A DNA stretch of 48,168 bases from contig WGFM01000004.1 in assembly GCA_015492245.1 (NCBI GenBank), forward strand, positions 1-48,168. The letters are read 5' to 3'. The stretch comes from Deltaproteobacteria bacterium (GTDB taxonomy: Bacteria > Desulfobacterota > GWC2-55-46 > DRQE01). The position numbers and the translations under genes were made by a program. Every line of letters begins with the position of its first letter. Position 1 is the stretch's first letter. The notes beneath the pieces were generated by a model that did not search any database, was not told the origin of the DNA, and was given only the letters and a program-made list of their open reading frames with translations. Shown in pieces: positions 27,553 through 45,005 of this stretch.

Positions 27553-28653
27553 ATGGGAAAAGGAGCACACAGACTGGTTCTTTTACTCTTCCTGCTACTT
27601 GCTGTCACGGCAGGCAGGTCCTATGCAACTGACACAGAGAAGAGCTTCTACATCAAGCCATACGATGGCCCGGCAAAGTCAATAAAAGTGGCAAAGATGG
27701 ACAAAGATGGTAAATGGGATACAGACTACAGGGGCAAGAGGCCCCTTAAGGAGTTCACCATCGTGGTGAAGGATGTGGAAATAGAGATAGCCCCTGGTGT
27801 GAAGGTTACAACCTGGGCTTTCGGGCTCGAGGGAGAAGAGGCTACTGTGCCAGGCCCTGAGATAAGGGTAAACGAAGGAGACTTCGTAAGGGTTTACTTC
27901 AAGAACACCCATAACATACCACATACCATACACTTTCACGGTCTTAACGCACCCTTCCACTCTGACGGAGTGCCCGGTGTCAGCCAGAAAGAGGTCAACC
28001 CGGGGGAGGTCTTTGTTTACGAGTTTGTTGCAAGAAGGACCGGAACCCATGTCTACCACTGCCATTATCAGACCATAATGCACCTCGAGATGGGCATGTA
28101 TGGAGCCTTCATAGTGGAGCCAAAGGAGAAGAGGTACGAAGCGGACAGAGATGTGGTATGGTTCCTCGATGAATGGTCTGTCATAAAGGATGGTAAGTGG
28201 TATGACCTCCCTCTTTCAGGGGTCAACGGCAAGTACAACTACTTTACCATAAACTCGGTTGCATGGCCCAAACTCGATGTAGCACTTACAGGTGTCAAGG
28301 TGGGCGAGAGGATAAGGATAAGGCTCATAAACATGGGCTACAAGCTACACTCCATGCACATTCACGGGCACAAGATTCTGGTTACCCACTACGATGGCTA
28401 CCCTGTGCAGGACCCCTACTTCATAGACACGCTCCCCATAGCCCCAGGACAGAGGATAGACTTCATATTCGAGGCGGATAACCCCGGCATATTCCCTGCC
28501 CATTGTCATGTGGTTCCCCATGTGTCGAACAATGGTGTATATCCTGGTGGCATGTTGACAGGCATAGTCTATGAGGGCTTCAGGCCAGGAGAACTACCAG
28601 AGAAGGTAGATGAATACAGAAAGAGACACTTCCCCATCCCCCCTTCCAGATAA
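27553..28653 (+). CDS. exported two-domain multicopper oxidase
   Basis: A 366-residue protein with a signal peptide (MGKGAHRLVLLLFLLLAVTAG, cleaved near SYAT) and two cupredoxin domains. Copper motifs in order: HTIHFHGL (about 124-131), HVYHCHYQTIMHLEMGM (about 163-179, with Cys-His and Met typical of a type 1 site), HSMHIHGH (about 266-273) and HCHVVPHVSNNG (about 316-327). The set fits two-domain laccase-like or nitrite-reductase-like oxidases that trimerise and share the trinuclear or type 2 site between subunits; which of these applies needs structure modelling. The likely role is periplasmic metal (Cu or Fe) oxidation or detoxification. It is divergent from pelC and is followed by a long hairpin. 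Confidence 0.88.
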   Translation: MGKGAHRLVLLLFLLLAVTAGRSYATDTEKSFYIKPYDGPAKSIKVAKMDKDGKWDTDYRGKRPLKEFTIVVKDVEIEIAPGVKVTTWAFGLEGEEATVPGPEIRVNEGDFVRVYFKNTHNIPHTIHFHGLNAPFHSDGVPGVSQKEVNPGEVFVYEFVARRTGTHVYHCHYQTIMHLEMGMYGAFIVEPKEKRYEADRDVVWFLDEWSVIKDGKWYDLPLSGVNGKYNYFTINSVAWPKLDVALTGVKVGERIRIRLINMGYKLHSMHIHGHKILVTHYDGYPVQDPYFIDTLPIAPGQRIDFIFEADNPGIFPAHCHVVPHVSNNGVYPGGMLTGIVYEGFRPGELPEKVDEYRKRHFPIPPSR

Positions 28654-29032: not shown

Positions 29033-29773
29033 TCAACGCAGTCTAAAGACTATCTCTACCTCCATCATCACCCTGTCTTTGCCGATTCTGACTGGTGGAA
29101 AGGGGGCAGCCCTTTCTACAATCCTTATGGCGGCACGGTTCAACACCCTGTGGTTGCACGGTGAGCTTACGCGCAGGCCAGCTATGGTGCCATCCTTCAG
29201 GATGTAGAAGTATAGCCCCACCCTTCCCTCATAGCCCCTCTTTCTGGCAACCATGGGGTAGAATATATTCTGCTCTATAATCGTCCTTACCATGCTCTTG
29301 TACTCTGCCATATAGCCATCATCACCATCTTCTTGCATGCCGTTAGGGCTGATGGCTCTATCGGGGGTCTTGCTGCCGGCATGCGCGGGATGGGAGTTCT
29401 GAGTACCTTCCATACCGTAAGGCTGCACCTGCGGGGGCTCACGGGGCTTTCTCTTTTCAACAGAGGCCGGGGCCACCCTGTCGTCCTGTGCCCTGTAGTG
29501 TGCCACATTGCCTTTATTTCTCGCCTTTCTATTGGGTCCGGGGGGTCCGACATCAGCACCATCGCCACCGTTCGTAATGCTCCTGCCTTCTTTATAGGCG
29601 GCCTCTGGCACGATACTCAACACAACCACATCGGGTGCTCCATCTGGCCTGCTGTGTGTCTTTGGACCGAGGACCACAATGGCTGCAACAACAGATACAT
29701 GGAGCAACAAGGAGCCAACCCATGCAAAAGCTACTGTGGACAGACGGCTACCTTTCGCCTGCGGTCCTATCAT
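29033..29773 (-). CDS. tonB-like: TonB family energy-transducing protein
   Basis: A 246-residue protein with one N-terminal membrane helix (about residues 14-35, AFAWVGSLLLHVSVVAAIVV, with the His often seen in TonB helices), a long flexible Gly/Pro/Lys/Asn-rich periplasmic linker (about 55-150) and a C-terminal TonB domain (about 155-245: YKSMVRTIIEQNIFYPMVA, GYEGRVGLYFYILKDGTIAG, LNRAAIRIVERAAPFPPV). It transmits proton-motive force to the outer-membrane receptor encoded in the same operon. It is last in the operon, overlapping the BtuF-CbiZ gene by 26 bases; the ribosome site (AAGGC) is weak. The linker is Gly/Asn-rich rather than the usual Pro/Lys repeat. Confidence 0.88.
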   Translation of the reverse strand: MIGPQAKGSRLSTVAFAWVGSLLLHVSVVAAIVVLGPKTHSRPDGAPDVVVLSIVPEAAYKEGRSITNGGDGADVGPPGPNRKARNKGNVAHYRAQDDRVAPASVEKRKPREPPQVQPYGMEGTQNSHPAHAGSKTPDRAISPNGMQEDGDDGYMAEYKSMVRTIIEQNIFYPMVARKRGYEGRVGLYFYILKDGTIAGLRVSSPCNHRVLNRAAIRIVERAAPFPPVRIGKDRVMMEVEIVFRLR

Positions 29774-31775
29774 GCCTTAAGCCCATGAGTATGCCATTGA
29801 ACAGACAGTTGAAAGCCCTGCGTAATGCTACAGGGAGTTTCAGCCTCCTGTTGACAAGCGGCTCGAGCTCCTCTACCGTGCCTTTACTCAGCCTCTCGGC
29901 TACAGCCACACACCAGAGCATATATCCATCGAGCCCACCTATTGAGCCATGCTCTATACCATCGCTTATCAAGAATGCACCCTCTACAAAAGATGCATAC
30001 AGGGGCAGTGTAAGTATCTGCTCGAGTCTTTCAACAAGCCTGGCCCTTTCTGCCCCTGAAAGCCCTGCCCCATCCAGTAGTGAGTAAACCTCTATGTTCC
30101 GCTCGGCAAGTCTTTCAAAGACCGAACGCCTCATCCCTATACCGTTCTGTTTAAAGACTGCCTCCTTGACCGCCCTGAAGACCGCTCTACCCATGACCTC
30201 ACCGACCTTTGTATGTCCACCTGTGGCATCCACATCTGCCCCCGTTCCTTCAACCACTATTATGTTATCTGTGCCGGTGCCTGTCGCCTGGTTTACAGCA
30301 GGGCTTTGAGAGCTTCTTATATCAAGGTCCTGAAGGGCTGCTGTCTTTGCCTCTGTTGCTGTTATGAGAGCTCGTGCCATAGCCCGTGGCGACAGCTTCC
30401 TGTTAGCCATTATTATTATATTTATGGTGCCGGGCCTGTAGAAGCTGCCCTCATCCTCAGATGCACGAAGGGCATTTGACCTAACACCGGCAGTTACAAT
30501 GGCATATACTGTAAGCCCCCTGTAGTCTTCTCTTGCCACACTTAAGTTGTCCATATCCGCCCCTGTGAAGAGAAGGCTCGCCTCTTCTTCCAAGAGTCCC
30601 GTTGCACGACAGACCTGCTCCCTCAACCTCTTAAGCCCAACCCTGTGTGCCACCGCCCAGTTCTGCGGGGGCAGATAGTGGTTGCCCACATAGCGCACAC
30701 CTTCACGCCATCCTTCAAGGGTTGACAGGACCTTCAAGGGCTGTCTGAACCGAACGATAAGGCTTTTGTGTATAAAGTCGTTTATACGCACATGGTCTAT
30801 ACGGCTCATTTCCACATAGGCCAACTCCAGAGGCAGGGTCTTTGAGCCAACAGGGGCATCCTTATAAACCCTACTCTTTGCAAACTCCTCAACATATATG
30901 TTCGATGCAAGCCATGAGACGAAATGTCCTGCACTTACAGAGGCTCTACAGGTTAGCTCACAGGGAAAGAATAGTATCCTGCCCTCTTTTACCGCCTCCA
31001 CATCCTTCCAGCCCGGTTCATTCTCTATAGTCTCAATCGCCCTGCTCTTCTTGTTACAGGCGTATATCACCTGTGGGTTGAACTCCATCCACTCCTTCTT
31101 TGTAATGCTTACCACATCGCCCTGCTTTCCTGTCGTAAGCGGTATGGCACCTGCTGCCCTTATGTAGTCGAGCTGGAAGGAGTCATCCCCAGGGACCATC
31201 ACCCTGTCTCCACCCATAATTCTTGCAACCCGCTTCCTCCTCTCCCTGGGTACATGGCTCAACTTTTTTGCCACAAGCTCTATCTCCTCTCTTATGGCCT
31301 TCACCAGCTTTTCTGCCTCACTTTCTTTCTGGAAGATTCTTCCCACGATCCTTATGTTTCCGTATATGTCCTCTATCGAGTGGGCATCGAGCTCAACGAT
31401 GGCTGCCTTGCCTTTTAGCCTCTCTATCGCATCTCTGTGAACACTGGCAACAAACATCAAATCTGGCTCGAGGGCTTCTATCTTCTCCAGAGACGGATAA
31501 AGAAAGCCTCCCAGGAGTTCCTTACCTTCGGTGTGGCTGTCGTGATACGTGAGACCTTCGAGCTCATCCTTCATACCGAGTGCAACCAGTATGTCCGTAA
31601 CCGAGGGCACCAGAGACACCACCCTTGACGGAGGCCTGTCTATTGCAACCCTTCTGCCTGCTCCATCGGTGAAACTTACATGGTAAGAAGAGGCATACAA
31701 ATGCCCACTATAAAGAAGTGCTGTAAGAAAGCTCAATGTGAGGATAAAGGCCACCATTTCAGTTTTTCTCATCAC
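29748..31775 (-). CDS. exported BtuF-like binding protein fused to a CbiZ amidohydrolase domain
   Basis: A 675-residue fusion. After a signal peptide (residues about 8-28), residues 30-310 form a class III periplasmic binding protein of BtuF type: RVVSLVPSVTDILVALG, LEALEPDLMFVASVH-like segments (IEALEPDLMFV) and GVVSITKKEW-type hinge regions. Residues about 335-555 match CbiZ adenosylcobinamide amidohydrolase: LIVRFRQPLKVLS, AGVRSNALRASED (near 425), GTINIIIMANRKLSP, ITATEAKTAALQDL and TGTGTDNIIVVEG. About 110 further residues (to 675) are helical and unassigned. CbiZ cleaves the nucleotide-loop amide of pseudo-corrinoids to cobyric acid and is normally cytoplasmic, so an exported version is unusual. 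The start ATG overlaps the end of the CobN-like gene by four bases. No BtuC/BtuD permease genes are in the window. Confidence 0.85.
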   Translation of the reverse strand: MMRKTEMVAFILTLSFLTALLYSGHLYASSYHVSFTDGAGRRVAIDRPPSRVVSLVPSVTDILVALGMKDELEGLTYHDSHTEGKELLGGFLYPSLEKIEALEPDLMFVASVHRDAIERLKGKAAIVELDAHSIEDIYGNIRIVGRIFQKESEAEKLVKAIREEIELVAKKLSHVPRERRKRVARIMGGDRVMVPGDDSFQLDYIRAAGAIPLTTGKQGDVVSITKKEWMEFNPQVIYACNKKSRAIETIENEPGWKDVEAVKEGRILFFPCELTCRASVSAGHFVSWLASNIYVEEFAKSRVYKDAPVGSKTLPLELAYVEMSRIDHVRINDFIHKSLIVRFRQPLKVLSTLEGWREGVRYVGNHYLPPQNWAVAHRVGLKRLREQVCRATGLLEEEASLLFTGADMDNLSVAREDYRGLTVYAIVTAGVRSNALRASEDEGSFYRPGTINIIIMANRKLSPRAMARALITATEAKTAALQDLDIRSSQSPAVNQATGTGTDNIIVVEGTGADVDATGGHTKVGEVMGRAVFRAVKEAVFKQNGIGMRRSVFERLAERNIEVYSLLDGAGLSGAERARLVERLEQILTLPLYASFVEGAFLISDGIEHGSIGGLDGYMLWCVAVAERLSKGTVEELEPLVNRRLKLPVALRRAFNCLFNGILMGLRHDRTAGER

Positions 31776-34700
31776 ATTCTCCTTCCACTTTTTCTGTAGC
31801 CAAGAAATATTAGAAGAAGAAAGAGCATGAAGCCCATTATGAACAGATAGGGCACCGGTGCAGAGCCTGTTTCTGCTTTTCTTTTCACCTCTTCCATCTC
31901 ATAGCCCTCAACGGTCTGTGGCTTCTTCTCTTTGGACACAGGTTCTCTGTTTTCTTCCCTTAGGGATGTGCTGCCAGCTGTGGTTGTGTTCTTGAATATC
32001 CTCTCGAAGGATGCCGCTCCGTCCTTCAGTGCCGGCACAGGTAGCATGACACTTCTTGTGAACTCTTTAAGTTTCGGATTGTTGCATGTATGATCACAGC
32101 AGGTAAGCCCCACATCTTCCACAGTCTCCGTATACTCGCTTACCAGTCTTTTCACCGTCTCACCATCTGCCTTCCAGTAGCCTTTCCTTACTGCCTCGAG
32201 CATCCTTGCCACAAGGCTCTGGTATGCATAGAGGTTACTGGCATCTTTCATCCTCTGCTTTATGTTCAGTCTGTAACGGTCGAGCACATAGGTCTCATAG
32301 AATGCCTGCCACATGGTATCTCCCACAGCCTCTGGCACAGTTACCTGCCATCCCCAGAGATACTCCATCAGATTTGCAAAAAACCGTGCACCTGCATAGC
32401 CCTCACGAAGCATGGATTCTATCCAGCGCGGGTTTAGGTAGCGGGTCTGTGCCTCCTTTGTCATAAACCGTTTAAGTGCTTCCTGTCTCATCCTGTCAGG
32501 GTCTATGAGGTTCGTTATATAGACATTCGGGCTCTTGCCATCCATGGTTCTTACAGTAAGGGCAAGCCCACCGAGGTATTGAAACATATCGTCGTTGTCC
32601 ATCGTTGCGTAGAGGTTGCCAGAGACACTGTGGACCACCATGGATGTGCCAGAAAGAGTCTTCCAGAAGATATTCAGCCCACCTGCTGTCGCATCCTCAC
32701 CCCAGAAGCCCTGTCCATAGAGGTATCCCAGCCGCCTTAGAAAAAGCTCTGCAAGGCTTCTTTCGTCCTTCCATGAGTCCGATTTTGCCACCGCCTCACT
32801 CAGCCCTGTTCCATAGGTGCCGGAGCGCTCGGTAAAGATTCTCACCGTGGCAAGCCTCTCTGCAAGCCTCTCTTCCACGCCCTGTTTGATGAGTATCTCC
32901 TTGAGTTTCAGTGTATGGCTTCTTATCGCGTTGTCTCTTTCGTTCTGTTTCTTTGCCACGGTTACTGCCCTGTCGAGAAGTGCCATGAGGTTCGGAAATG
33001 TGTCCCTGTAAAGCCCTGATGGCACCATCACCACATCAACCCTTGCCCTTCCGAGCCTCTCTCTCGGTATGGCTGCAACATCAACCACCCTTCCGCGTTC
33101 ATCCCATACAGGCCTTACACCAAGGAGTGCCATAACCTGTGCCTCCATGATCCCCCTGTGTCTTATGGTCTCAACAGCCCACAGGTTTATGGTTATCTTT
33201 TGTGGCATGGTGTCCTCATCTTTCAGGTGCTTCTCCATGAGCTCTTCTGCCATCTTAACCCCTTTCCTGTAGGTGGCCTCTGTGGGTATCTTTGATGGGT
33301 CGAAGGCAAAGAAGTTTCTGCCTGTGGGAAGAGACTCTGGAGTTCTTACAGGGTCTCCCCCAGGACCTGCTGGTATGTATCTACCATTGAGGGCGGTGAA
33401 GAGTTTTTCAAGCTCTTCCTTTGCGGAATGCAGGATGAGTCTGCGATAAAGGGCCTTCTTGTCTTCCACATCCTCTGACGAGCCAACAGCCTCAGCAATT
33501 GCAACAGCCGTCTTGTCAACCATGTCCTCATGGGGTGTCTTTCCAAAGGTATGGAGCCCAAAGGGTGTTGGGGCATTCTCCATCTCATCCATGTATGCCT
33601 CGATTCTGTCGAGCACATCGCTATCGGCCACATCTTTTACTGAAAGTGCCCTTAATATACCAAGCCTTTCTGCAAGCTCTTTAAGCTCCCTCAGGGTTTC
33701 ATCTAAAGAGGTGGCGCCAAGTGCAAGGGCGTTCCTGTAGTCGTTCAGGAGTTCTTTCAGTCTTCTGACATCAGGGTTCAACCCTGCCTTATCGAAAGGT
33801 GGCGTCATGTGGTCTATCACAACTGCCATGCCACGCCTTTTTGCCTGAAGCCCCTCGCCAACATCGTCCACTATGTAGGGGTATACAACCGGGGTGTGCT
33901 GGGTCAACACATCTGGTGGGTCGCTTTCTGAAAGCCCCATCTCTTTGCCCGGAAGCCACTCATGGGTGCCATGGGTTCCAAGGTGTATTATGGCGTCTGC
34001 CCTGAAGACCTTCATGAGATAGAGATAAAAGGCTATGTACTGATGATGGGGTGGTAGTTCCGCAGAGTGGTAGAGTTTGTCTACATCCTGAAGCCAGCCC
34101 CTTGCAGGCTGGGGTGCGAGTATCATGTTGCCATACCTGACAATGGGTAGCACGATGTAGTCCTTTCCATCTTTCTTCCACATCATTATGGTGCCATCCC
34201 CGGGGCTACCCCACTCTTTTATGACCTCTTTTCTGAACCCCTCTGGAAGCTCACCGAACCAGCGCGAGTACTCATCAACAGGAATCAATACAGCCTTACC
34301 AGATGCCACAAGGCGAGAGAGCTCTCCTGCTGCCCAGTTGCCAAGGTTTCGTCCATAGCGGAAGAGATTCTCCGAAAGCCCCGTTTTCGTGAGCCCTCTG
34401 TTGCCTGTGTTATATCCCTGCCTTCTGAATCCATCCATCATGGTGTATATGCTCTCGATCACATTGAGATAGGATGCCCCTATGTTATGTTTGCCAGATG
34501 GATAGTTGTAGTAAACGATGGCGATGCGTTTGTCCCTGTTGGGTTTGCTCCTAAGATTGAGCCATGCCCTCACCCTCTTTGCGAGCATCTCCACCCTTTC
34601 CCTTATGGGTTCTGTCCTGTAATAGGTTGTACCGGTTGATGGGTCCTTGTACCGTTCTCTGGAGCCCACCACCACTGGCTGCACAGTTCCAGCAAGTTCA

Positions 34701-35629
34701 GGGGTTGCCACCTGCCATGTCCTCTCGAATATGGAAAGCCCTTTCCTGGATTGGAGCCATTCGCTGCGGCTCTTTCTATAGAGGCTTATGGCATCTATTA
34801 CAGGAGCCCCTATCTTCTCAAGTATGGGCACCATAGAGGTCTTTGCCCCTATCTTAAGAGATAGGCCCACTATGATACTCACCCTGAACTCCGGGTTTTC
34901 AAGAAAGTATCTCTTCAGCATCTCCTCTTCTGGCCAGCCAAAGACAGGAAAGACATTCAACCCCTCTTTCTCAAGGGCATCCACTATGGCGTCAACAAGG
35001 TTGGTGTCTTCTGTAACCAGTGAATTTCTGTAGAATGTAAGCCCCACCCATGGGACATCCTTCCTGGGTTTGTAGTGTCTCAGAAACTCATCAACACTTT
35101 CCACCCACCTGTGCTCCCCTCGTATGTATATGCCCATAGAAGGCATCTTCCGTGGGGCATCTGGCTCCACTTCGATTCCAGGCTCTTTCCTTACAAGAAA
35201 AAGGAGCATGTTCTTAAGGTTCTCCGTGCCACCATGGTCGTAGTAGGCCGTAAGAACAGGGTCTCTCAGTATACCCATCTTTCGGTATTCTTCGTCATAG
35301 GGCTCGCTTACCCCATAGACCCTGCCGCCATTTTTAACAACCCTTTCTACATAGTCCCTTGCTGCCATAACGATTCTTCTATCCATAAGGTAGATGACAA
35401 AGAGCTCGCCCTTCTCTGGCTTACTGTCTTTGATACCCGAGCGATCAAGAACCTTGAAGGAGACCCTTTTTTCAACCTCAGGGTGCTCCTTCTCTATGGC
35501 CTTTATTGCCTCTACAAGAGGCAATGTGTGGCTATCCGCGGGAAGAATGGTTATGACCGATGCAACGGATTCCTTTGCAAGAAGAAACAATAGAAGTGCC
35601 ACTATGTGAAAGAGCCTACTCTGGAACAT
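31772..35629 (-). CDS. exported, membrane-anchored CobN/HmuS-like chelatase subunit
   Basis: A 1285-residue homologue of the large cobaltochelatase/Mg-chelatase subunit (CobN/BchH). Unlike biosynthetic CobN it has a signal peptide (MFQSRLFHIVALLLFLLAK) and a C-terminal membrane helix (about 1259-1278, PYLFIMGFMLFLLLIFLGY) followed by a basic tail, placing the catalytic body in the periplasm. Family motifs include HLGTHGTHEWLPGK near residue 550, AGPGGDP near 760 and ERSGTYGTGLSEA near 940, plus a CC-x3-C motif (LTCCDHTCNNP) near the end. HmuS of Bacteroidota has this architecture and works on haem; here the cobalamin riboswitch and CbiZ fusion suggest a corrinoid. No CobS/CobT partner genes occur nearby. 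AAGGGTG lies 6 bases before the ATG; overlaps the DUF2149 gene by 14 bases. Confidence 0.88.
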   Translation of the reverse strand: MFQSRLFHIVALLLFLLAKESVASVITILPADSHTLPLVEAIKAIEKEHPEVEKRVSFKVLDRSGIKDSKPEKGELFVIYLMDRRIVMAARDYVERVVKNGGRVYGVSEPYDEEYRKMGILRDPVLTAYYDHGGTENLKNMLLFLVRKEPGIEVEPDAPRKMPSMGIYIRGEHRWVESVDEFLRHYKPRKDVPWVGLTFYRNSLVTEDTNLVDAIVDALEKEGLNVFPVFGWPEEEMLKRYFLENPEFRVSIIVGLSLKIGAKTSMVPILEKIGAPVIDAISLYRKSRSEWLQSRKGLSIFERTWQVATPELAGTVQPVVVGSRERYKDPSTGTTYYRTEPIRERVEMLAKRVRAWLNLRSKPNRDKRIAIVYYNYPSGKHNIGASYLNVIESIYTMMDGFRRQGYNTGNRGLTKTGLSENLFRYGRNLGNWAAGELSRLVASGKAVLIPVDEYSRWFGELPEGFRKEVIKEWGSPGDGTIMMWKKDGKDYIVLPIVRYGNMILAPQPARGWLQDVDKLYHSAELPPHHQYIAFYLYLMKVFRADAIIHLGTHGTHEWLPGKEMGLSESDPPDVLTQHTPVVYPYIVDDVGEGLQAKRRGMAVVIDHMTPPFDKAGLNPDVRRLKELLNDYRNALALGATSLDETLRELKELAERLGILRALSVKDVADSDVLDRIEAYMDEMENAPTPFGLHTFGKTPHEDMVDKTAVAIAEAVGSSEDVEDKKALYRRLILHSAKEELEKLFTALNGRYIPAGPGGDPVRTPESLPTGRNFFAFDPSKIPTEATYRKGVKMAEELMEKHLKDEDTMPQKITINLWAVETIRHRGIMEAQVMALLGVRPVWDERGRVVDVAAIPRERLGRARVDVVMVPSGLYRDTFPNLMALLDRAVTVAKKQNERDNAIRSHTLKLKEILIKQGVEERLAERLATVRIFTERSGTYGTGLSEAVAKSDSWKDERSLAELFLRRLGYLYGQGFWGEDATAGGLNIFWKTLSGTSMVVHSVSGNLYATMDNDDMFQYLGGLALTVRTMDGKSPNVYITNLIDPDRMRQEALKRFMTKEAQTRYLNPRWIESMLREGYAGARFFANLMEYLWGWQVTVPEAVGDTMWQAFYETYVLDRYRLNIKQRMKDASNLYAYQSLVARMLEAVRKGYWKADGETVKRLVSEYTETVEDVGLTCCDHTCNNPKLKEFTRSVMLPVPALKDGAASFERIFKNTTTAGSTSLREENREPVSKEKKPQTVEGYEMEEVKRKAETGSAPVPYLFIMGFMLFLLLIFLGYRKSGRRM

Positions 35630-35954
35630 ATATCACCCTTCCGTCTTCGAGCCTGTAGGCGGTGCCAAGCTTTACTCCCCTGCCAGACAGTCTCCTGTCT
35701 GTAACCCTTTTTGCCTCTATCTTACGGCCCTTTTTGGTTATGATTTCGATCTTTCCGTCTCCATCCTTTTTTAGTATCGTGAGTTCAGACTCGGGGTTCA
35801 GAAGCTCCAGCATGTTGTATGCCATAAACAGGGCTACCATCATGCTCACTATGAAGACAATCCCTGCATCGAAGAGGTTTGCCACACCCTGTATGGGATC
35901 CTCTATGGGTTCTTTGGAATCGAAAAAGAGCCTTCTTCTTTTAAGAAACCTCAT
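35616..35954 (-). CDS. DUF2149 protein, ExbD-like
   Basis: I place the start at 35954, where ATG overlaps the stop of the ExbB-like gene (ATGA); a frame starting at 36023 would only duplicate that gene's 3' end. The 112-residue product is MRFLKRRRLFF..., with a single membrane helix preceded by VANLFDAG. Asp29 at the start of this helix corresponds in place to the proton-carrying Asp of ExbD/TolR/MotB. The C-terminal part is periplasmic and basic, with KKGRKIEAKRV and a strand-rich end (GTAYRLEDGRVIYV). DUF2149 is a domain found with CobN-like and ExbB-like genes in archaea and bacteria. I infer that it replaces ExbD as stator partner for the operon's TonB. Confidence 0.82.
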   Translation of the reverse strand: MRFLKRRRLFFDSKEPIEDPIQGVANLFDAGIVFIVSMMVALFMAYNMLELLNPESELTILKKDGDGKIEIITKKGRKIEAKRVTDRRLSGRGVKLGTAYRLEDGRVIYVPE

Positions 35955-36505
35955 CCTTTCTGTCTCCTCCTCAAAAGAATCTCTGCATGGGTCTCCATTC
36001 TGAGTATGTCTCTTTTCACCCACTTCTCTTTTACAAGGCTCAGCACATAGGCAGCTACCCCGCAGGCAAGCCCCACCACAGTGGTCGTAAAGGCTGTAAC
36101 CATATTGCCTGCCATCTGGGGTATGTCTCCCCTGGCAAGAGAGCTCAGGGCTATGCCCATCGGTATGAGGGTTCCCATGAGTCCAAGTGCAGGCCCCACC
36201 CTTATGACAAACCTTATCCTGTTGAGCCCGTCGGTAAGCTCTGCCTCTCTGCGCTGTAGCTCCCTTTCTATAAGTATGTCCAGTGTATCTGTGGATTCAC
36301 TGTTTTCAACCTCTTCTTCAAGGCTATCGCAGAATCTTTCCACATCGTACTCATAACCTCTCTTTCTTTCGATATACTCTCGCAGAAGTGCGCCCGAACA
36401 GAAAAGAACCCAGAAGACAAGCCCCACAAGGCCTGCCACGACAGGGTATAGCATAAGTTCGGAGAGCACATACAGAAATGTCAGAAGCCCTGCGAATATG
36501 TTCAT
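35951..36505 (-). CDS. exbB-like: MotA/TolQ/ExbB-type proton channel protein
   Basis: A 184-residue protein with three membrane helices: about 8-40 (LSELMLYPVVAGLVGLVFWV), 98-125 (VIRVGPALGLMGTLIPMG) and 132-160 (MVTAFTTTVVGLACGVAAYV). The GPALGLMGTLIPMGIAL and FTTTVVGLACG motifs are the ExbB/TolQ signature, including the Thr residues lining the proton path. Cytoplasmic loop from about 45 to 95 is acidic. It would power TonB together with DUF2149. Overlaps the DUF2162 gene and the DUF2149 gene by four bases each, so translation is tightly coupled. Confidence 0.9.
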   Translation of the reverse strand: MNIFAGLLTFLYVLSELMLYPVVAGLVGLVFWVLFCSGALLREYIERKRGYEYDVERFCDSLEEEVENSESTDTLDILIERELQRREAELTDGLNRIRFVIRVGPALGLMGTLIPMGIALSSLARGDIPQMAGNMVTAFTTTVVGLACGVAAYVLSLVKEKWVKRDILRMETHAEILLRRRQKG

Positions 36506-37209
36506 ACTCTCCTCCCGCTGGTTATGAAACCAGTGACTGCTGCAAGGAGAAGAATCCCCACAACACCAGGTGCATCTGCGGTAAGCATTACAGGAGATTT
36601 TGCCCCAAGAAAACCAGAGTACACAGGCCTTGCCTTCTCCACCACTGCTGGAACGAAAAGAGAAAGGATAAAGTATAGCCCTACGAGAAAGAGTGTGAAA
36701 GAGAGGTTGACTATGCCCCTCTCCTTCGATGCCCTCGCAACAAAAAGAAAAACTGTGGTCAGCGTAAGAAAGACCACGAGAAGCAAGCCTCCCATAAATA
36801 CGGGGGAGCTACCTGTAAATGCCACCGCAGACCACACAGAGTATGCAATGGCAGCCGTACATACAGGGCACGGAACGACGAGCAGAATAAGTGAAACCTT
36901 CTTCTGCCGCTCGGTGCAGCACACGCTGTGGTTTTTGAGTATCCACAGTGCCCAGCCTACAAATGCTACGGCAACTATTGCGTGAAGATAGATGCCTGCC
37001 CCAAGCACGCCTGAAAGAACCCCCACCACATCTTCAGCAACAAGGCTCAGGATGATGAAGAGTGCCATGTAGCCTCCATAGACAAGCCCCACCTCTTTAA
37101 GTGTGGCTCTCGCAAACCCAAGCCCACAGCCTGTCTTTACTGCGAACACCCCAAGGCTTATACTCATGCCAAGAAGCCACAGAGCCGTATCTATGGATGG
37201 ATTCTGCAC
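36502..37209 (-). CDS. DUF2162 predicted transporter
   Basis: A 235-residue polytopic membrane protein with about six or seven helices, e.g. DTALWLLGMSISLGVFAV, GLVYGGYMALFIILSLV and GVVGILLLAAVTGFITSG. It has a CCTERQK motif near residue 97 and PCPVCTAAI near 112, giving four Cys that could bind a metal or form redox pairs. DUF2162 proteins are annotated as putative transporters and commonly neighbour CobN-like and DUF2149 genes. GTG start with GGAGG six bases upstream, 10 bases after the receptor gene. It could move the freed metal or corrinoid across the inner membrane, given the absence of BtuCD; this is inference. Confidence 0.82.
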   Translation of the reverse strand: MQNPSIDTALWLLGMSISLGVFAVKTGCGLGFARATLKEVGLVYGGYMALFIILSLVAEDVVGVLSGVLGAGIYLHAIVAVAFVGWALWILKNHSVCCTERQKKVSLILLVVPCPVCTAAIAYSVWSAVAFTGSSPVFMGGLLLVVFLTLTTVFLFVARASKERGIVNLSFTLFLVGLYFILSLFVPAVVEKARPVYSGFLGAKSPVMLTADAPGVVGILLLAAVTGFITSGRRV

Positions 37210-37219
37210 GAACGCCTCC

Positions 37220-39166
37220 TCATATTATGAGCCTCACAATCCCTGTGTATGTCCTTTCTGGCATGGGATAGCCCGCCACATACTCGTAGCTTCTGTTGAG
37301 AAGGTTCTCAACTGAAAACCCTAACTCAACCTCCTTGTGCACCCTGTATGAACCCTTCAGGTTCACAAGAAGGAAGCCTCTCTTCTCTATGGTCTTCCCA
37401 TAGGTTGGTGAAGAGAAGTTCCAGTCTGTAACCTTCTCCTTTCCGTTATAGCGTGCAACGAGCCTTGCATCCCAGCTTTCACCCATCATCCTTACGCCAA
37501 AACTGCCAACCCACTTTGGCGTGTATAGAAGGGTCTTTCCGTACTCGTCTATTTCGGTCCTGTCTTTTGCAGAGTAGCGGGTATGGTAGGTTATGCTTAC
37601 GAATGGCTCTACCGAGGTGAACCAGCCCAGAAGAGCACCTATGTCTGTAGAGAGGTTTGTCTCCACACCCTGAACAGTGGCACCATCCACATTCTTCCAT
37701 GTCCTTGCAGAAAGGCCTGCATCGTAGTAGCCCAGTATCTTGTTGTCAAACTCTGTATGAAAGAAGGTAAGCTCCACACTGTTCATCCCATCTGAGAACT
37801 CCACACCTGCATCATAGGTTACACTCTCCTCGGGCTCAATCTCAGGGTTTCCCACATAACGGGTTCCCCATGAAGAGACATAGTCTGCTGCAAGCTCATC
37901 AGGGGCAGGAGATCTGAAGGCCGTGCCAATGTTGAGCTTAACCCTTGTATGCTCTGTAAGCCTGTATACTGCACCACCCCGTAAGGCTGTGTAGTCCATG
38001 TCCTCATCCCTTGGGGTTACAGAGACACCAGGGGTGCTCAGCACCTCGTTCTTGAAGTAGTCGTATCGCAGTCCACCGTTGAGGGTGAGCCTTTTGTCCA
38101 GAAGCTCTCCCCTGAGTTCTGTAAAGACTCCATATGTGTTGTACCGCGAGTTCGGGCTATAGGGAGCTCCTGCGGTTCTCTTTGAAGAGACCCTTATCCT
38201 GTTCCAGTCCGCACCAGCTACAAGGCGCACACCTTCGAACTCAAAGCTTTTCTGTGCTGTAAAGCCGGTGGTCTGTGTATTTTTTGTGGTTACATTGGTG
38301 TTACTGTACCACTCGTCCTTGTCGTCTATACTGTAGTAGCTTATCTTTGTGCTCTCTGTGGTGTAGGCAATATCTATGCCGTCTCTTTTCTTATCCGAAT
38401 AGTCGTCCGGAGCTGGTGAGTACCTTGGCCCTGGGGAGCCTATGTCCCAGCCACGCCAGTGCTCGAGACCGAAGGAAAGCCTTCCGCCTTCTTTGAGCCC
38501 GTAGCCGAGCCTGAAGGAAAAGGTCTCGTCGTTGTAGGATGTGTTTGGAATCTTACCGTACTCTCTGGCGTCGTAGTCGCCCCTTGATGCCCTGCTCACA
38601 GAAAACAGAAGGTCTACCATTCCTTCTTTAAGGCTGAACTCTGCCCACTGTTTCGAGTAGTCCCACGAGCCACCTTCTGTCCCAAGCTCTGCACCCGTGC
38701 GCCTCGCCCTTTTGGTTATTATGTTTACAACCCCTCCCATTGCCTGTGAACCGTAGAGCACGGAGGCAGGTCCCTTTACTATCTCTATCCTCTCTATATC
38801 CTCAACAGGTATCTTTGCAAGGTTCACCGTGCCTGCATTGTGCCCGTCTACGAGAACGAGTACCCTGCTCTTGTAGATACTGAAAAGGTCTGTTGCAAGC
38901 CCCCTCAGGCCCATTCTTGCACTGAGTGTGCCGGGATACTTGTGCACATGCCCGATGCCTGCCTCGCTCACCAGATCTGCTGCATCCTGTGCGGTGGAGT
39001 TCTTTATGTCCTCACTGGTTATAATCTGAACCGGAGAGGATACATCTTTTCTTGGCTCCTCAATCCTTGTGGCTGTAACGACCACTTCTCCAAGACTATC
39101 CGCCTGCACGGTAAGTGCTGTGTTTGTCAAGAGAAGGATTACGAGACATACAAGAAACCTCTTCAT
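37220..39166 (-). CDS. btuB-like: TonB-dependent outer-membrane receptor, BtuB/HmuR-like
   Basis: A 648-residue receptor. A signal peptide (MKRFLVCLVILLLTNTAL, cleaved near VQADS) is followed by a TonB box (LGEVVVTATR, about 25-34), a plug domain with SARMGLRGLATD, VLVLVDGHNAG, DIERIEIVKGPASVLYGSQAMGG split across 120-150 and IITKRARR, and a 22-strand barrel ending in YTGIVRLII. Length and plug motifs fit BtuB and haem receptors equally. The cobalamin riboswitch upstream favours a corrinoid ligand. The barrel has no FRAP/NPNL-type haem motif that I can see. GGAGG lies about 10 bases before the ATG. First large gene of the riboswitch operon. Confidence 0.92.
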   Translation of the reverse strand: MKRFLVCLVILLLTNTALTVQADSLGEVVVTATRIEEPRKDVSSPVQIITSEDIKNSTAQDAADLVSEAGIGHVHKYPGTLSARMGLRGLATDLFSIYKSRVLVLVDGHNAGTVNLAKIPVEDIERIEIVKGPASVLYGSQAMGGVVNIITKRARRTGAELGTEGGSWDYSKQWAEFSLKEGMVDLLFSVSRASRGDYDAREYGKIPNTSYNDETFSFRLGYGLKEGGRLSFGLEHWRGWDIGSPGPRYSPAPDDYSDKKRDGIDIAYTTESTKISYYSIDDKDEWYSNTNVTTKNTQTTGFTAQKSFEFEGVRLVAGADWNRIRVSSKRTAGAPYSPNSRYNTYGVFTELRGELLDKRLTLNGGLRYDYFKNEVLSTPGVSVTPRDEDMDYTALRGGAVYRLTEHTRVKLNIGTAFRSPAPDELAADYVSSWGTRYVGNPEIEPEESVTYDAGVEFSDGMNSVELTFFHTEFDNKILGYYDAGLSARTWKNVDGATVQGVETNLSTDIGALLGWFTSVEPFVSITYHTRYSAKDRTEIDEYGKTLLYTPKWVGSFGVRMMGESWDARLVARYNGKEKVTDWNFSSPTYGKTIEKRGFLLVNLKGSYRVHKEVELGFSVENLLNRSYEYVAGYPMPERTYTGIVRLII

Positions 39167-39333
39167 TGTTAAAAGACCTCCATAATTTTTTAAAAGACCG
39201 TGTTACACTCCACCGGGCCTGACACACTGAAAGAAGAAATCCCATTGACCTGAGGGGGACACACGATGGGTGCATGAAGACACACCAGCGCCTTTCCACA
39301 CAAGATTATGGGTATGTGTGGCTCTGCGTGGTA

Positions 39334-39405
39334 TCAGGTAATTTCAGATGAATCTGGTGGGTCTACCAGCGAAATGTGTATCTGGCAGGAAATGAACTTT
39401 TCCAT
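39334..39405 (-). CDS. 23-codon ORF after the cobalamin riboswitch
   Basis: ATG at 39405 preceded by GAGGGAGGT seven bases upstream, opening a frame for MEKFISCQIHISLVDPPD and a few more residues, then TGA. It lies right after the riboswitch aptamer, whose end region CCTCGAGG is complementary to the ribosome site, so its translation may be the switch's direct target. It may be a leader peptide or simply a regulatory start site. Not homologous to anything I know. Confidence 0.4.
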   Translation of the reverse strand: MEKFISCQIHISLVDPPDSSEIT

Positions 39406-39434
39406 GGCATTACCTCCCTCGAGGATTTTCCTGA

Positions 39435-39592
39435 CGGATGGGTCTTCCGGCTTGGGGCAGGTTAGCCTACTCGCCCGCCTTCCCACCATGGTGTTATCCA
39501 TGGCAGTGGCTCTGGTGGGCTTTCGTTCCCATCACGGCTGCGGGGCAGCGGGGGATTCACACCCCTCTTCCACGCATCCGCCAGTTTGTGTG
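39435..39592 (-). promoter_or_regulatory. cobalamin (B12) riboswitch
   Basis: On the minus strand the aptamer contains, in order, GTGTGAATCCCCCGCTGCC, CCGCAGCCGTGATGGGAACG, the B12 box GAGCCACTGCC, CCATGG paired with CCATGG, GGTGGGAAGGCGGGCGAG and AAGCCGGAAGACC. These are the conserved core segments of AdoCbl-type riboswitches. It starts within about 20 bases of the predicted transcription start. The expression platform probably involves CCTCGAGG and the GAGGGAGG ribosome site that follows (39410-39430), so translational control is likely; no terminator stem with T-run is evident. It controls the receptor-CobN-like operon and ties it to corrinoids. Confidence 0.92.
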
Positions 39593-39602
39593 ATTTCGGC
39601 TC

Positions 39603-39631
39603 AATATATAATAACAGTTTTCCTGTGTCAA
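39603..39631 (-). promoter_or_regulatory. promoter of the corrinoid operon
   Basis: Minus strand TTGACA (39631-39626), 17-base spacer, TATATT (39608-39603). Nearly consensus, with a predicted start near 39596, just before the riboswitch aptamer. Confidence 0.7.
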
Positions 39632-40111: not shown

Positions 40112-40546
40112 ATGAATGGTAAAAAACGACAAGGTCAATTTATGAAGAAAACCAGAAGAAGTTCTCTACCAGGCAGGGTTAAGGTATTCAATGTGCTGGA
40201 TGGTCAAGCCGTAAAGCTCAAGCACACACCTTATGGATCTGTGGGCTACTGCTATCGTGGTAAGGATATGGAGGTGGTCTGGGTGCGAAAAGAAGCGGAA
40301 GAGATTGACACAAGCTGGTATTCCCAGCCCACAACGGATCATATTTTTATCGTCAAGGGAAGACTTAAGGTGGTATTCCCTGGCGGAAGTTCGACGATAC
40401 TTAAGCCTGGTGATCTGATGGTCTTGCCCAAGAATACAAAGTGCAGGGCTTATAGCTACCCGCGCCGGAAAGGGGCGGAAACAATTTTTTTAGCCTTTTA
40501 TCGAAAGCCACCTACGAGTCATACATCTCACAAGAACAAGCGTTAG
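40112..40546 (+). CDS. small cupin-domain protein
   Basis: A 144-residue protein with a single cupin barrel (about residues 60-130): HIFIVKGRLKVVFPGG and LKPGDLMVLPKNTKCRAY match the two cupin motifs, though the usual metal-binding His pair of motif 1 (HxH) is reduced to one His in TTDHIF and motif 2 lacks His, so it may not bind metal as canonical cupins do. The start has a basic tail (MNGKKRQGQF). AGAGGT lies 8 bases before the ATG. It is convergent with the radical-SAM operon and its stop overlaps the last gene of that operon by four bases, an arrangement that suggests antisense coupling. Function could be binding or isomerising the operon's product. Confidence 0.8.
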   Translation: MNGKKRQGQFMKKTRRSSLPGRVKVFNVLDGQAVKLKHTPYGSVGYCYRGKDMEVVWVRKEAEEIDTSWYSQPTTDHIFIVKGRLKVVFPGGSSTILKPGDLMVLPKNTKCRAYSYPRRKGAETIFLAFYRKPPTSHTSHKNKR

Positions 40547-41532
40547 AGCCAGCAATGCGGGTCTTCTCCAAACAGATCACCATGGTAAGCCAGAGCTGTT
40601 GCTCTGCAACCACCACATCTTTCCATGAAGATACAGACGGAACATTTGCCTTTAAGATTTCGGCCAACCTGAAGCTTTCTTACGCAAGGGGAACCGCGCC
40701 AGATTTCACCGAACGATTGGATCCTTAAATCACCAATAGGCGCTGGTATCAATACACATGGAGTAACATATCCCTCAGGAGTAATGCACGCCTGTCCTCT
40801 ACCTGCAGCACAACCTCTGAACCCTTGCCTGGAGGCATGAAGTGGATCTATCAAAGCCAATTGGGACAGATGCGTCCTGAATTCCATTTTGCCCTTGTAG
40901 TTATCTCTCATTTCCTTCCATTTGCTCATAACCCACTTCCATTCCTGCGGAGACAGATCCTGGTCTTCGGTGCCCCTGCCGACCGGGACAAACTGTGAAA
41001 CATTGAATAGAGCAATCCCCATATCTGAGGCCAACTTCACGAGGGGTTCAAAATGGTGTAAGTTGCTTCTCTGCGGTGTGTAACATAGATGAACCTTCAA
41101 TCCAATTGATACAGCACTGTGGACAGTCTCCAAAGCCCTAACGAAGGAACCGGGACGACGGATAGAATCATGGCTTTCCTCCAGCCCATCAATACTGACT
41201 TGAAGTCGATTGATACCACATGACTTGAGTTCTTCAAGAACCTCACGACTGACATTCCAGCCGTTGGTCCCAATGCCAACACAGAAATTCTTCTTGACAG
41301 CGGCCGTGATAATATCAAAGATGTCGGCTCGTAACAGAGGTTCTCCCCCTGAAAACGCCAAATCAACCACCCCGATTGATTTCAGCTGGTCCATAATATC
41401 CAGGATTTCTTCCAGTGACAGTTCTTCTTCCGCTGGTTTTCCTCCATCCGCTGAACAATGAAGGCACCTGAAGTTGCAAGCCCTGGTGATCTGCCACAGT
41501 ATGTGATAAGGATAGACATTAATATCAGTCAT
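40543..41532 (-). CDS. radical SAM/SPASM enzyme (second copy)
   Basis: A 329-residue radical-SAM protein of the PqqE/SPASM type. The cluster motif CNFRCLHC (Cys19, Cys23, Cys26) is followed by FSGGEPLLR, GIGTNGWNV and LQVSIDGLEES, the SAM-binding and barrel signatures. The C-terminal SPASM region carries GCAAGRGQACITPEG, TPCV, CSVCIFMERCGGCR and DPHCWL, enough Cys for two auxiliary clusters. The ATG at 41532 has AAGG nine bases upstream and overlaps the HemN-like gene by eight bases; an ATG at 41541 is less well placed. It resembles the first SPASM gene at 43933 throughout, so the two are paralogues that may act on different sites or form a pair. Substrate unknown. Confidence 0.9.
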   Translation of the reverse strand: MTDINVYPYHILWQITRACNFRCLHCSADGGKPAEEELSLEEILDIMDQLKSIGVVDLAFSGGEPLLRADIFDIITAAVKKNFCVGIGTNGWNVSREVLEELKSCGINRLQVSIDGLEESHDSIRRPGSFVRALETVHSAVSIGLKVHLCYTPQRSNLHHFEPLVKLASDMGIALFNVSQFVPVGRGTEDQDLSPQEWKWVMSKWKEMRDNYKGKMEFRTHLSQLALIDPLHASRQGFRGCAAGRGQACITPEGYVTPCVLIPAPIGDLRIQSFGEIWRGSPCVRKLQVGRNLKGKCSVCIFMERCGGCRATALAYHGDLFGEDPHCWL

Positions 41533-42799
41533 CGACCACATCCTTTTTAGGACAAAATGGCTGTAGTTCCTCGGGTATACGCATTACTCGCCTCAAGTAT
41601 TCTTCGTTCTTGAATTTAAAATATACCGCTGAAAGCAGGTGTATCTGTTCCATCCCTTTCCAGGACAGATGCACCTGATCCTTGTTGAGTTCCACCAGCC
41701 CAGCCTTTGACAGCTCTGAGAGCTCTTTTTGCAAATATTTTACAGAGCCTGAGCCAAATCTGGCCTCTAAATCCGAATACCGGAACATCATTCTTTTTGA
41801 TAACCCTAAAAGAGCCCAGCGCCTGATCAAGTCGCCACTGTCCAAAGAAATAGACAGCGCCTGTGTGTTATCAGGTGTTCTACCAATGTACTGCTCCAAG
41901 TCAGATATGTTTTTCATGTAACGACCATCTATAAATGACTGGGCTGACACCCCAAAACCAAGGACATTCCCCCCATCCCAGTATTTATGATGATGGATAC
42001 AGACATACTTGTCGTCAAGGGCGAAATGGGCTGTGCCTATACGAAGATACCCATGACTCAGAAGGTAATCGGTTGAACTTCTGAAACGTTCCATTCTCTC
42101 TGTTTTGTAGGCCAGGCATTCTCTGCGTAGACTTTCATCTGCAAAGACCCCTGTATTGTTTCTGAGAACAAAGGGATATACCGAGATATGTGGAATCTTG
42201 TTTCGAACCAACACATCGAGGGTGGCATCAACTGATCTTTGTGTCTCACCAGGGAGACCTACGAGAACATCGCAATTGATGTTCTCAAAGCCATTCTTTC
42301 GTATAAGGTCCACCATGTGGGAGAACCGCCCTGGTGTCCCCTCCCTGCCAAATCGTTGCAATAGCTGGCCATCAAGGTTTTGTACTCCCAGACTGATACG
42401 ATTGAATCCTGCTGCTCTCCATATTCGCAATTTAGCCTCATCTATTGAAGATGGATTGCATTCAACAGTTACTTCGGGAATCTCTCTTGTCTCCCAGAAT
42501 CTTGTTAAGACCCTTATCAGGTGGCTCCATTGCCGAAGCGACAACAAGCTCGGGGTTCCGCCTCCTATGTAAAGTGAATTAACTATGGATTCCCTGGGCT
42601 TCCAACCATGCCATCTAAACTCGATCTCCTGTTCCAGGGCGGTAAGGTAGGCGTTAATCTCTGCCTCGCAAACCTCGACGAAGGAGACATAAAAACAAAA
42701 CTTACACTTGGTCTTACAAAAAGGTATGTGGATGTACAGTTCCAGATCTTGAGCCGGAGTGTTCCTGCGTTGGCCTGTTGGCACCTCATTTGCTCTCAT
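41525..42799 (-). CDS. HemN/HemW-like radical SAM enzyme
   Basis: A 424-residue radical-SAM protein of the coproporphyrinogen dehydrogenase-like group. YIHIPFCKTKCKFCFY (Cys28, Cys32, Cys35 from the start at 42799) is the HemN-type motif. YIGGGTPSLLS, VTVECNPSSID, RISLGVQNLDGQLLQRFGR and VLVGLPGETQ are typical of HemW, HutW/ChuW and class C radical methylases. The C-terminal part (about 310-400) is a winged-helix-like domain (FRYSDLEARFGSGSVKYLQ). The Cys-to-aromatic residue after the motif is Phe-Tyr, not the Gly-type of HemN itself, so haem synthesis is not assured. AAAGGGAA sits 7-8 bases before the ATG at 42799. It overlaps the methyltransferase gene by 14 bases. Confidence 0.88.
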   Translation of the reverse strand: MRANEVPTGQRRNTPAQDLELYIHIPFCKTKCKFCFYVSFVEVCEAEINAYLTALEQEIEFRWHGWKPRESIVNSLYIGGGTPSLLSLRQWSHLIRVLTRFWETREIPEVTVECNPSSIDEAKLRIWRAAGFNRISLGVQNLDGQLLQRFGREGTPGRFSHMVDLIRKNGFENINCDVLVGLPGETQRSVDATLDVLVRNKIPHISVYPFVLRNNTGVFADESLRRECLAYKTERMERFRSSTDYLLSHGYLRIGTAHFALDDKYVCIHHHKYWDGGNVLGFGVSAQSFIDGRYMKNISDLEQYIGRTPDNTQALSISLDSGDLIRRWALLGLSKRMMFRYSDLEARFGSGSVKYLQKELSELSKAGLVELNKDQVHLSWKGMEQIHLLSAVYFKFKNEEYLRRVMRIPEELQPFCPKKDVVDD

Positions 42800-43643
42800 A
42801 GAGTTTCCCTTTGCCATGAACGAATAGATAGCCTTTCGACCTGTGGATTTCCAGCTCAGAGAAGGCATCCCCTAACCGCATCTGAAAAAAAGAAGAGTCG
42901 AACCGATGCAAGTGAGCTTTAACCTCGGAAATACCAAACATCTGTCGGGATTGTTTGTGCAGCAAATAAGCCTCATCTTCAGTATCACCCACACTTAGGT
43001 AAAGGCATCCACCGGGCCTGAGAACCCTGAGGATTTCTGCCATGGCAAGATCAGGGCTGATGAGATGGTCAAAAACATCGATACTTAAAAGAACATCAAA
43101 AAAGTTGCTCTGTAAGGGCAAACATTCGGCAATGCCTTGCACAAAAGGCACTCCATGATTTATTGCTGCCACACATGGGTCGAGACCAAGATAGTTGCTA
43201 TCAGGGAAATGGTTTGCCCTGAGAGCGGTCCCGCACCCAAGGTCGAGAACCCACTTGCCCTTTGCAAGCTGTATCAGGTCTAATAGCTTGTATATCACTT
43301 CAGGATCAAGACGGTGTTCCTTCGTAAGCTTCCGAGAAAAAGGAGCTCTTGATCTGGCATGGGAATCTTTCTTGTTGCGCCAGGAGTAGGTGGATTCCAT
43401 GGACTCGGCCCATCGGCCCAGCAGGCTTTCTGATACGCCTCGTGATGTGAGCAACTTCAAGACACGCGGTGTAATAAAACTCGGGAAGCCTGCTCTGACA
43501 GGAAAGTTGGCGTTGCAAAGTCGGCAAAGAAGCGCGCCCCTGTTGTCATGCTCTAAGGAACCAAGGCAGAGGGGACATGCTAAGCTGCGTATAAAGGCAT
43601 CTATAAGTACATTAAATACATTTGTCTGCTGGTTTGGTGTCAT
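42786..43643 (-). CDS. class I methyltransferase with N-terminal zinc ribbon
   Basis: A 285-residue protein. The N-terminal knuckles CPLC (23-26) and CRLC (40-43) form a Trm112/zinc-ribbon-like module. KWVLDLGCGTA (about 130-140) is the SAM-binding motif I; DSNYLGLDPC, FDVLLSIDVFDHL and EILRVLRPGGCLYLSVGD are motifs II to IV. It looks like a small-molecule or protein methyltransferase related to UbiE-type enzymes. I take the ATG at 43643, which overlaps the PqqD-like stop (ATGA), over the ATG at 43709. The fusion to a zinc ribbon is common in enzymes acting on amino acids or rRNA, but the substrate here is presumably the operon's product. Confidence 0.87.
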   Translation of the reverse strand: MTPNQQTNVFNVLIDAFIRSLACPLCLGSLEHDNRGALLCRLCNANFPVRAGFPSFITPRVLKLLTSRGVSESLLGRWAESMESTYSWRNKKDSHARSRAPFSRKLTKEHRLDPEVIYKLLDLIQLAKGKWVLDLGCGTALRANHFPDSNYLGLDPCVAAINHGVPFVQGIAECLPLQSNFFDVLLSIDVFDHLISPDLAMAEILRVLRPGGCLYLSVGDTEDEAYLLHKQSRQMFGISEVKAHLHRFDSSFFQMRLGDAFSELEIHRSKGYLFVHGKGKLYESK

Positions 43644-44991: not shown

Positions 44992-45005
44992 AAAGTCTCA
45001 CATCC

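Follow-up and report, generated by a model that had tools for sequence, protein, structure and literature searches.

A cobalamin-riboswitch operon with a periplasmic CobN-like protein and an exported BtuF-CbiZ fusion, a candidate corrinoid-processing module of Desulfobacterota

Introduction

Many 'CobN' genes of anaerobes come without CobS or CobT. One CobN relative of described function is HmuS, the dechelatase of the Hmu haem system (hmuYRSTUV) of Bacteroidota, reported in 2025 and, from Porphyromonas gingivalis, in 2026 (PMC12583661, PMC13227078); HmuS demonstrates that a homologue can demetallate (PMC12583661), and the 2025 paper on its structure (EMBO J.) holds that most CobN homologues cannot be assigned. 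Here we describe an operon for another such homologue, in a window of 48,168 bases that is one whole contig of a Deltaproteobacteria bacterium genome (1.88 Mb, rated 100% complete). In it a cobalamin (B12) riboswitch precedes genes for a TonB-dependent receptor, a membrane-anchored CobN-like protein with ExbB-like and DUF2149 companions, and an exported fusion of BtuF with CbiZ. Our preferred reading, to which we give a probability of about 0.4, is that of a B12-repressed module that wins a limiting ingredient of B12 by capturing corrinoids, trimming them in the periplasm, releasing their cobalt with the help of the proton-motive force (PMF) and importing the ion.

The locus shares with Hmu the TonB-dependent receptor, the anchored periplasmic CobN-like protein, the ExbB-like and DUF2149 proteins and the equivalent of His-538. 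Unlike Hmu, it has a B12 riboswitch and CbiZ; its CobN-like protein falls in a separate clade, with Asp and Gln for His-1209 and Glu-1212 and without a methionine-rich insertion; no HmuY is found among the operon genes; and DUF2162 has no detectable relation to HmuT of the Bacteroides Hmu system (hhalign probability 10%). Rodionov proposed a BtuS family in 2003 (as cited in PMC6460266), with BtuS1 and BtuS2 in Bacteroides fragilis; in the accessible parts of that literature BtuS is likewise periplasmic and anchored, BtuS2 is an HmuS, and no BtuF-CbiZ or riboswitch module is found in the descriptions.

On the corrinoid side, the cobN cluster on plasmid pSZ77 of Trichlorobacter (Geobacter) lovleyi was given a proposed corrinoid role in 2012, with the role termed 'unknown' and no CobS/CobT, and the text of that paper does not mention riboswitches (PMC3403914). 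Its gene order (NC_010815.1) is riboswitch, TonB-dependent receptor, DUF2162, ExbB, DUF2149 and CobN, and its CobN-like protein is 46% identical to that of the window; it differs in having no CbiZ fusion and an additional ExbB-ExbD-TonB set. BtuB-BtuFCD uptake with CbiZ remodelling (Rhodobacter sphaeroides, archaea) resembles the locus in receptor, BtuF, CbiZ and riboswitch control, but the operon here is without BtuC and BtuD, its CbiZ is exported and fused, and a CobN-like module is added. CobN of the CobNST chelatase belongs to the same protein family and carries the same Asp/Gln signature in its cleft, but is soluble and cytosolic, has ATP-driven partners and serves late insertion in the aerobic route. 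In Desulfuromonas, B12-elements precede 'B12 transport loci' (PMC545781).

Results

The operon is read from the minus strand in the order riboswitch, receptor, DUF2162, ExbB-like, DUF2149, CobN-like, BtuF-CbiZ and TonB, and searches with RF00174 and Pfam place all of these elements in it, as the earlier note on this DNA had proposed. A promoter-like site (TTGACA-17-TATATT, 39603..39631; 11/12 consensus matches, a match to consensus only) lies directly before the aptamer core of the riboswitch (39442..39571; RF00174 model positions 47-167, 70.5 bits, gathering score 31.5, E 1.7e-15). Then come the outer-membrane receptor (37220..39166; TonB_dep_Rec, PF00593, and Plug, PF07715), the multi-helix inner-membrane protein DUF2162 (36502..37209; PF09930, 135 bits), an ExbB/TolQ/MotA-like proton-channel subunit (35951..36505; MotA_ExbB, PF01618, 57 bits), its ExbD-like partner DUF2149 (35616..36023, with a likely start at about 35954; PF09919, 107 bits), the CobN-like class I chelatase-family protein (31772..35629; CobN-Mg_chel, PF02514, 1068 bits), the exported fusion of a BtuF-like Peripla_BP_2 domain, a CbiZ-type amidohydrolase and an all-helical C-terminal domain (29748..31775; PF01497, 85 bits, and PF01955, 190 bits against a cut-off of 27) and TonB (29033..29773; TonB_C, PF03544, 58 bits). 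Because each gene from DUF2162 through TonB overlaps the next by anything from a few bases to a few tens, they likely form a single co-translated transcription unit.

Relatives were sought in 198 genomes of the phylum and in GTDB contigs. About 15 other loci show the order receptor-DUF2162-ExbB-DUF2149-(BtuF-CbiZ)-CobN or, where a contig ends, parts of it; among their hosts are Desulfobacterota (including Desulfobacterales) and a metagenome-assembled genome (MAG) of Mariprofundaceae, and since the set repeats in about 15 other contigs, the grouping is not due to chance. Desulfospira joergensenii, Desulfamplus magnetovallimortis, Desulfatitalea alkaliphila and the T. lovleyi plasmid carry the set without CbiZ. 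In D. joergensenii (L045, 1-13636) the CobN-like/DUF2162/ExbB/DUF2149 module is present as two tandem copies. The module is thus a widespread, conserved set and not peculiar to this operon, the only one that the earlier note had described; pSZ77 has a riboswitch-controlled version lacking CbiZ. The literature searched holds no description of a riboswitch-controlled module with an exported BtuF-CbiZ.

The same note had suggested searching for the gene set across genomes and seeing what regulates it. A cobalamin riboswitch lies ahead of 19 of the 24 clade loci with upstream DNA to inspect (the window, L043, L046, L047, L050, L052-L055, L057, L076, L080, L081, L083, L084, L086, L087, L089 and L094), and none was found ahead of the other five (L044, L045, L056, L079 and L095) or at any of three Bacteroidota Hmu loci (Bacteroides finegoldii, Prevotella nigrescens and Aureibacter). 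This association is not a matter of chance, because such riboswitches number only three in the whole 1.88 Mb of the genome that the window belongs to. At L052 (4037-5893), L094 (9455-9921), L046 and L089, two or three closely spaced cobalamin riboswitches precede the module, at least two of them in direct tandem.

The CobN-like protein itself has HmuS as its best PDB match (9d26, 508 bits), followed by CobN (474 bits) and ChlH (422 bits); its nearest named relative is a 90% identical fragment from the 'Deltaproteobacteria bacterium HyVt-575' MAG, which from its name we take to be a hydrothermal-vent isolate. Sequence and hydropathy place a signal-like helix at its N-terminus and a membrane helix at its C-terminus, matching the terminal membrane segments of HmuS, and together with the PF02514 score this upholds its description as a membrane-anchored periplasmic CobN-like protein. 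In two trees (80 rows under LG+G4 and 35 rows under a mixture model, from quick searches and with Shimodaira-Hasegawa-like approximate likelihood-ratio support only), soluble CobN and BchH fall outside a group (99) that unites all membrane-anchored CobN-like proteins encoded next to ExbB and DUF2149, those of Methanothrix (L060, L070) and T. lovleyi included. Inside this group the protein of the window belongs to a supported subgroup (99) without HmuS, and none of four biosynthetic or cob-cluster CobN shares its clade.

We then compared 39 sequences of this clade with Bacteroides thetaiotaomicron HmuS, using its numbering (PMC12583661), in which His-1209 and Glu-1212 form the metal site and define the motif LSLDHxxEFMGG (PMC12583661). 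The corresponding site in the window reads MDNDDMFQYLGG, and across the clade the position of His-1209 is Asp in 38/39 and that of Glu-1212 is Gln in 37/39, as in CobN. Histidine occupies the positions of His-506 and His-538 in all 39 sequences. At the head/neck haem site the Met-79 equivalent is kept in 33/39, but His-254 was not found in the clade (Leu, Phe or Met in 38/39, a gap in one). The methionine-rich insertion of domain IV, a segment of 150-339 aa in three HmuS, is missing, with 38-47 aa at this place and 70 aa in one member. By its sequence the protein belongs to an Hmu-type module but is not HmuS, because of the Asp/Gln pair, the missing His-254 and the missing insertion. What had been called an Hmu-like system is therefore Hmu-like in architecture, but not in the features that define HmuS, and DUF2162 is no part of Hmu.

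Iron acquisition from haem or another porphyrin, as in Hmu, with B12 control either coincidental or serving a B12-linked need for iron, could draw on HmuS as the nearest solved homologue, on the best score of the receptor being with a haem-receptor model and on AhbD/HemN-type radical SAM genes upstream. Against these stand the riboswitches at 19/24 clade loci and none at the Hmu clusters, the CbiZ fusions, the absence of HmuY from the operon, and the loss of the HmuS motif, His-254 and the methionine-rich insertion together; riboswitch control and the residue tests thus make haem a very improbable substrate. Because of the clade-wide riboswitches, the CbiZ fusions and the CobN-type cleft residues, the substrate is very probably a corrinoid, as the riboswitch and CbiZ had led the earlier note to think.

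The receptor and the fusion point in the same direction. With the generic haem-receptor model TIGR01785 the receptor scores 220 bits, more than with BtuB models (153 and 125 bits); none of the three scores reaches the cut-off of its model, so the label 'BtuB-like' rests on context. Its median similarity is 301 bits to receptors near CbiZ and CobN versus 83 bits to those near CobN only, and the closest receptors include those of L142 and L144, where BtuF-CbiZ is present and CobN is not; for this reason the receptor and BtuF-CbiZ probably share their ligand, a corrinoid. BtuF-CbiZ has a signal-peptide-like N-terminus (sequence and hydropathy), and its structure model is confident (predicted local distance difference test score, pLDDT, 87; predicted template-modelling score 0.82), with binding-protein, CbiZ and helical C-terminal domains, the first of which matches a binding-protein fold in a structure search. 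Of 45 columns that do not vary in cytosolic CbiZ, 36 have the same main residue in the fusions (alignment of 30 sequences). CbiZ is fused to BtuF beside the module at many loci. Exported stand-alone CbiZ occurs in two relatives (L079 and L130), and in G128 such a CbiZ lies next to the module. An apparent DUF2149-BtuF-CbiZ fusion in L084 proved to be an artefact of a run of N. The C-terminus of the fusion (window 29748-30155) is an all-helical domain of ~120 aa conserved in nearly all BtuF-CbiZ fusions, with no Pfam match; a sub-threshold CbiS match suggests that it is perhaps CobZ-related. Capture and trimming of corrinoids outside the cytoplasm, as previously suggested, are thus supported.

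CobN-like proteins occur in other settings as well. At the gammaproteobacterial loci L061, L064 and L069 a cobalamin riboswitch precedes genes for membrane-anchored CobN, ExbB and DUF2149, with CobB- and BluB-like neighbours in L061 and a CobU-like one in L064; in these the position of HmuS His-506 is Ala and the second motif DNND. At L140 (2278-11146), L151 (4387-13313; no cobalamin riboswitch found) and L155 (2548-11640), a CobN-like protein split over two open frames (about 800 + 490 aa) comes after receptor-BtuF-BtuC-BtuD. Soluble CobN-like proteins lie beside soluble or exported CbiZ and BtuF/BtuCD-type genes at L137, L138 and L139, with a riboswitch at the latter two; the CobN-CbiZ link thus also exists outside the clade of the window.

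Given a corrinoid substrate, we considered how the genome makes and moves corrins. One of its other riboswitches heads cbiP, a CbiX-CbiC fusion, cbiD, cbiE, cbiL and cbiF (anaerobic-type corrin synthesis) and the other cobB/cbiA, cobU and cobT; these names were read from translations, and CbiD and CbiC are backed by family searches. Since this gene content indicates corrin synthesis by the anaerobic CbiX route, biosynthetic insertion of cobalt does not depend on the CobN-like protein, and the identity of this protein as the biosynthetic chelatase is ruled out by that route, its membrane anchoring and its separate clade. The AAA+ and VWA partners CobS/CobT or ChlI/ChlD are absent from the operon, the rest of the genome not having been searched for them. 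Among clade genomes, 15/18 have CbiD compared to 74/180 others (p 0.0008, uncorrected for relatedness), and 16/18 make the corrin ring once CbiC is counted too.

Neither CbiM nor a FecCD/BtuC permease (PF01032, which did match in control genomes) was found in the window genome, and G012, which also has the operon, shows no FecCD above cut-off. The module might then be an inner-membrane corrinoid importer that replaces BtuCD, in which the CobN-like protein would hand the ring over, ExbB and DUF2149 would supply energy and DUF2162 would pass cobyric acid with its metal unchanged. Riboswitch control would suit this role, and in G166 and G191, two genomes with close relatives of the CobN-like protein, BtuF-BtuC-BtuD accompanies the same BtuF-CbiZ fusion behind a riboswitch, from which it can be argued that the module occupies the place of BtuCD here. 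These two genomes, however, have both systems together and most clade genomes have FecCD; an importer would have no need of the conserved chelatase histidines, a ring of roughly 900 Da is large for a protein of the size of DUF2162, and the nickel context of a Runella module (below) does not fit. We regard ring import as unlikely. Less likely still is periplasmic remetallation, in which the CobN-like protein would put Co2+ into metal-free or wrongly metallated corrins from phototrophs before import. The CobN-type cleft residues (Asp 38/39, Gln 37/39) and the corrinoid context throughout would agree with it, but it presumes free periplasmic cobalt, the substrates of CbiZ are complete cobamides or cobinamide, and without BtuC the window genome has no import route for the product.

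DUF2149 carries an NLFD motif whose Asp stands where the membrane helix begins, conserved in 39 aligned sequences (Glu in Runella), and this conserved acidic residue is as expected of an ExbD/TolR-like stator. Archaea have no outer membrane, and Methanothrix also has no TonB. Because Methanothrix (L060, L070) has membrane-anchored CobN with DUF2162, ExbB and DUF2149, and because T. lovleyi keeps its ExbB/DUF2149 pair with the CobN-like protein beside a separate ExbB-ExbD-TonB, it seems on balance probable that the target of the pair is the CobN-like protein, with TonB possibly a second one.

DUF2162 exceeds the cut-off in 15/198 genomes, 14 of which carry clade CobN; in the remaining one, G159, a single contig holds DUF2162 next to BtuF-CbiZ. 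The family is nearly confined to this module. An alignment of 22-23 relatives shows Lys24, His75 and P112-C-P-x-C116 to be invariant, and the structure model is helical (pLDDT 84).

In Runella slithyformis (plasmid pRUNSL01, L095, 4890-13338), a CobN-like/ExbB/DUF2149/receptor set lies within a hypABF-hypCDE and Ni-hydrogenase cluster, with no cobalamin riboswitch found upstream. The slot of DUF2162 is filled by a NicO-like protein with an HAFEADH signature (Pfam score below cut-off, signature read by eye), and the CobN-like protein belongs to the subgroup of the window, on a long branch. Profile comparison of DUF2162 with this Runella protein and with a CcdA-annotated protein gave nothing. 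Because the hydrogenase needs Ni ions, the Runella module would most plausibly yield an ion, possibly as a nickel version of Hmu.

Beside the operon, a multicopper oxidase lies on the plus strand just past the 3' end (window 27553-28653). On the other side (window 40112-45467) are a cupin, a methyltransferase, a SnoaL-like protein, two radical SAM/SPASM proteins, one of them AhbD/NirJ-like with a score below cut-off, and a HemN/HemW-like radical SAM protein.

Discussion

From the observed gene set, domains, regulatory signature, clade and conserved residues, and from the lack of BtuC and CbiM, we infer every reaction of the following scheme and its direction. Low B12 in the cell would permit expression through the riboswitch, judging from its RF00174 match, and the receptor with TonB would carry corrinoids to the periplasm. 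There the BtuF domain would bind the corrinoid and the tethered CbiZ cut the amide bond to the nucleotide loop, leaving cobyric acid with the lower face of its cobalt exposed. The membrane-anchored CobN-like protein would accept the ring, and ExbB with DUF2149, as a PMF-driven stator pair replacing the ATP-driven motors of CobN and ChlH, would drive metal release. DUF2162 has CPxC, His and Lys within the membrane and may pass the ion inward to feed CbiX and the cell's own corrin synthesis. Metal release, as opposed to insertion or ring import, is a tentative choice at somewhat less than even odds, and the scheme in its strictest form, a PMF-driven periplasmic decobaltase with CbiZ cutting the lower-ligand loop first and DUF2162 as ion importer, is doubtful.

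Several points weigh against cobalt release with ion import. The cobalt of a corrin is very inert, no enzyme that removes it is known to us, and the cleft residues match inserting CobN rather than removing HmuS. CbiM is present in 13/18 clade genomes, with no depletion (p 0.55), and FecCD permeases in most; for this reason the argument from metal supply is specific to the window genome, and CbiM absence as a general rule of the clade is rejected. A fold search with the DUF2162 model gave no significant structural match, and the gammaproteobacterial CobN-like group is coupled to CobB/BluB-like genes and BtuF, not to DUF2162. Finally, the sole match to ExbD (PF02472) in the window genome is TolR of a tolQ-tolR-tolA set, so that TonB may need ExbB and DUF2149, which weakens the idea that the pair serves the CobN-like protein only.

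With this work, one branch of CobN gains a specific proposed assignment as a B12-switched, corrinoid-directed, periplasmic and stator-coupled protein with a dedicated membrane partner and a BtuF-fused trimming enzyme. If cobalt removal is true, it would be the first decobaltase of a corrin, a new reaction and a new source of cobalt in sulfidic water, and corrinoids as a cobalt source would parallel haem as the iron source for Hmu. If ring import is true instead, the module would be a new type of B12 importer. Either outcome would bear on the role of ExbB and DUF2149 in the haem system of gut bacteria.

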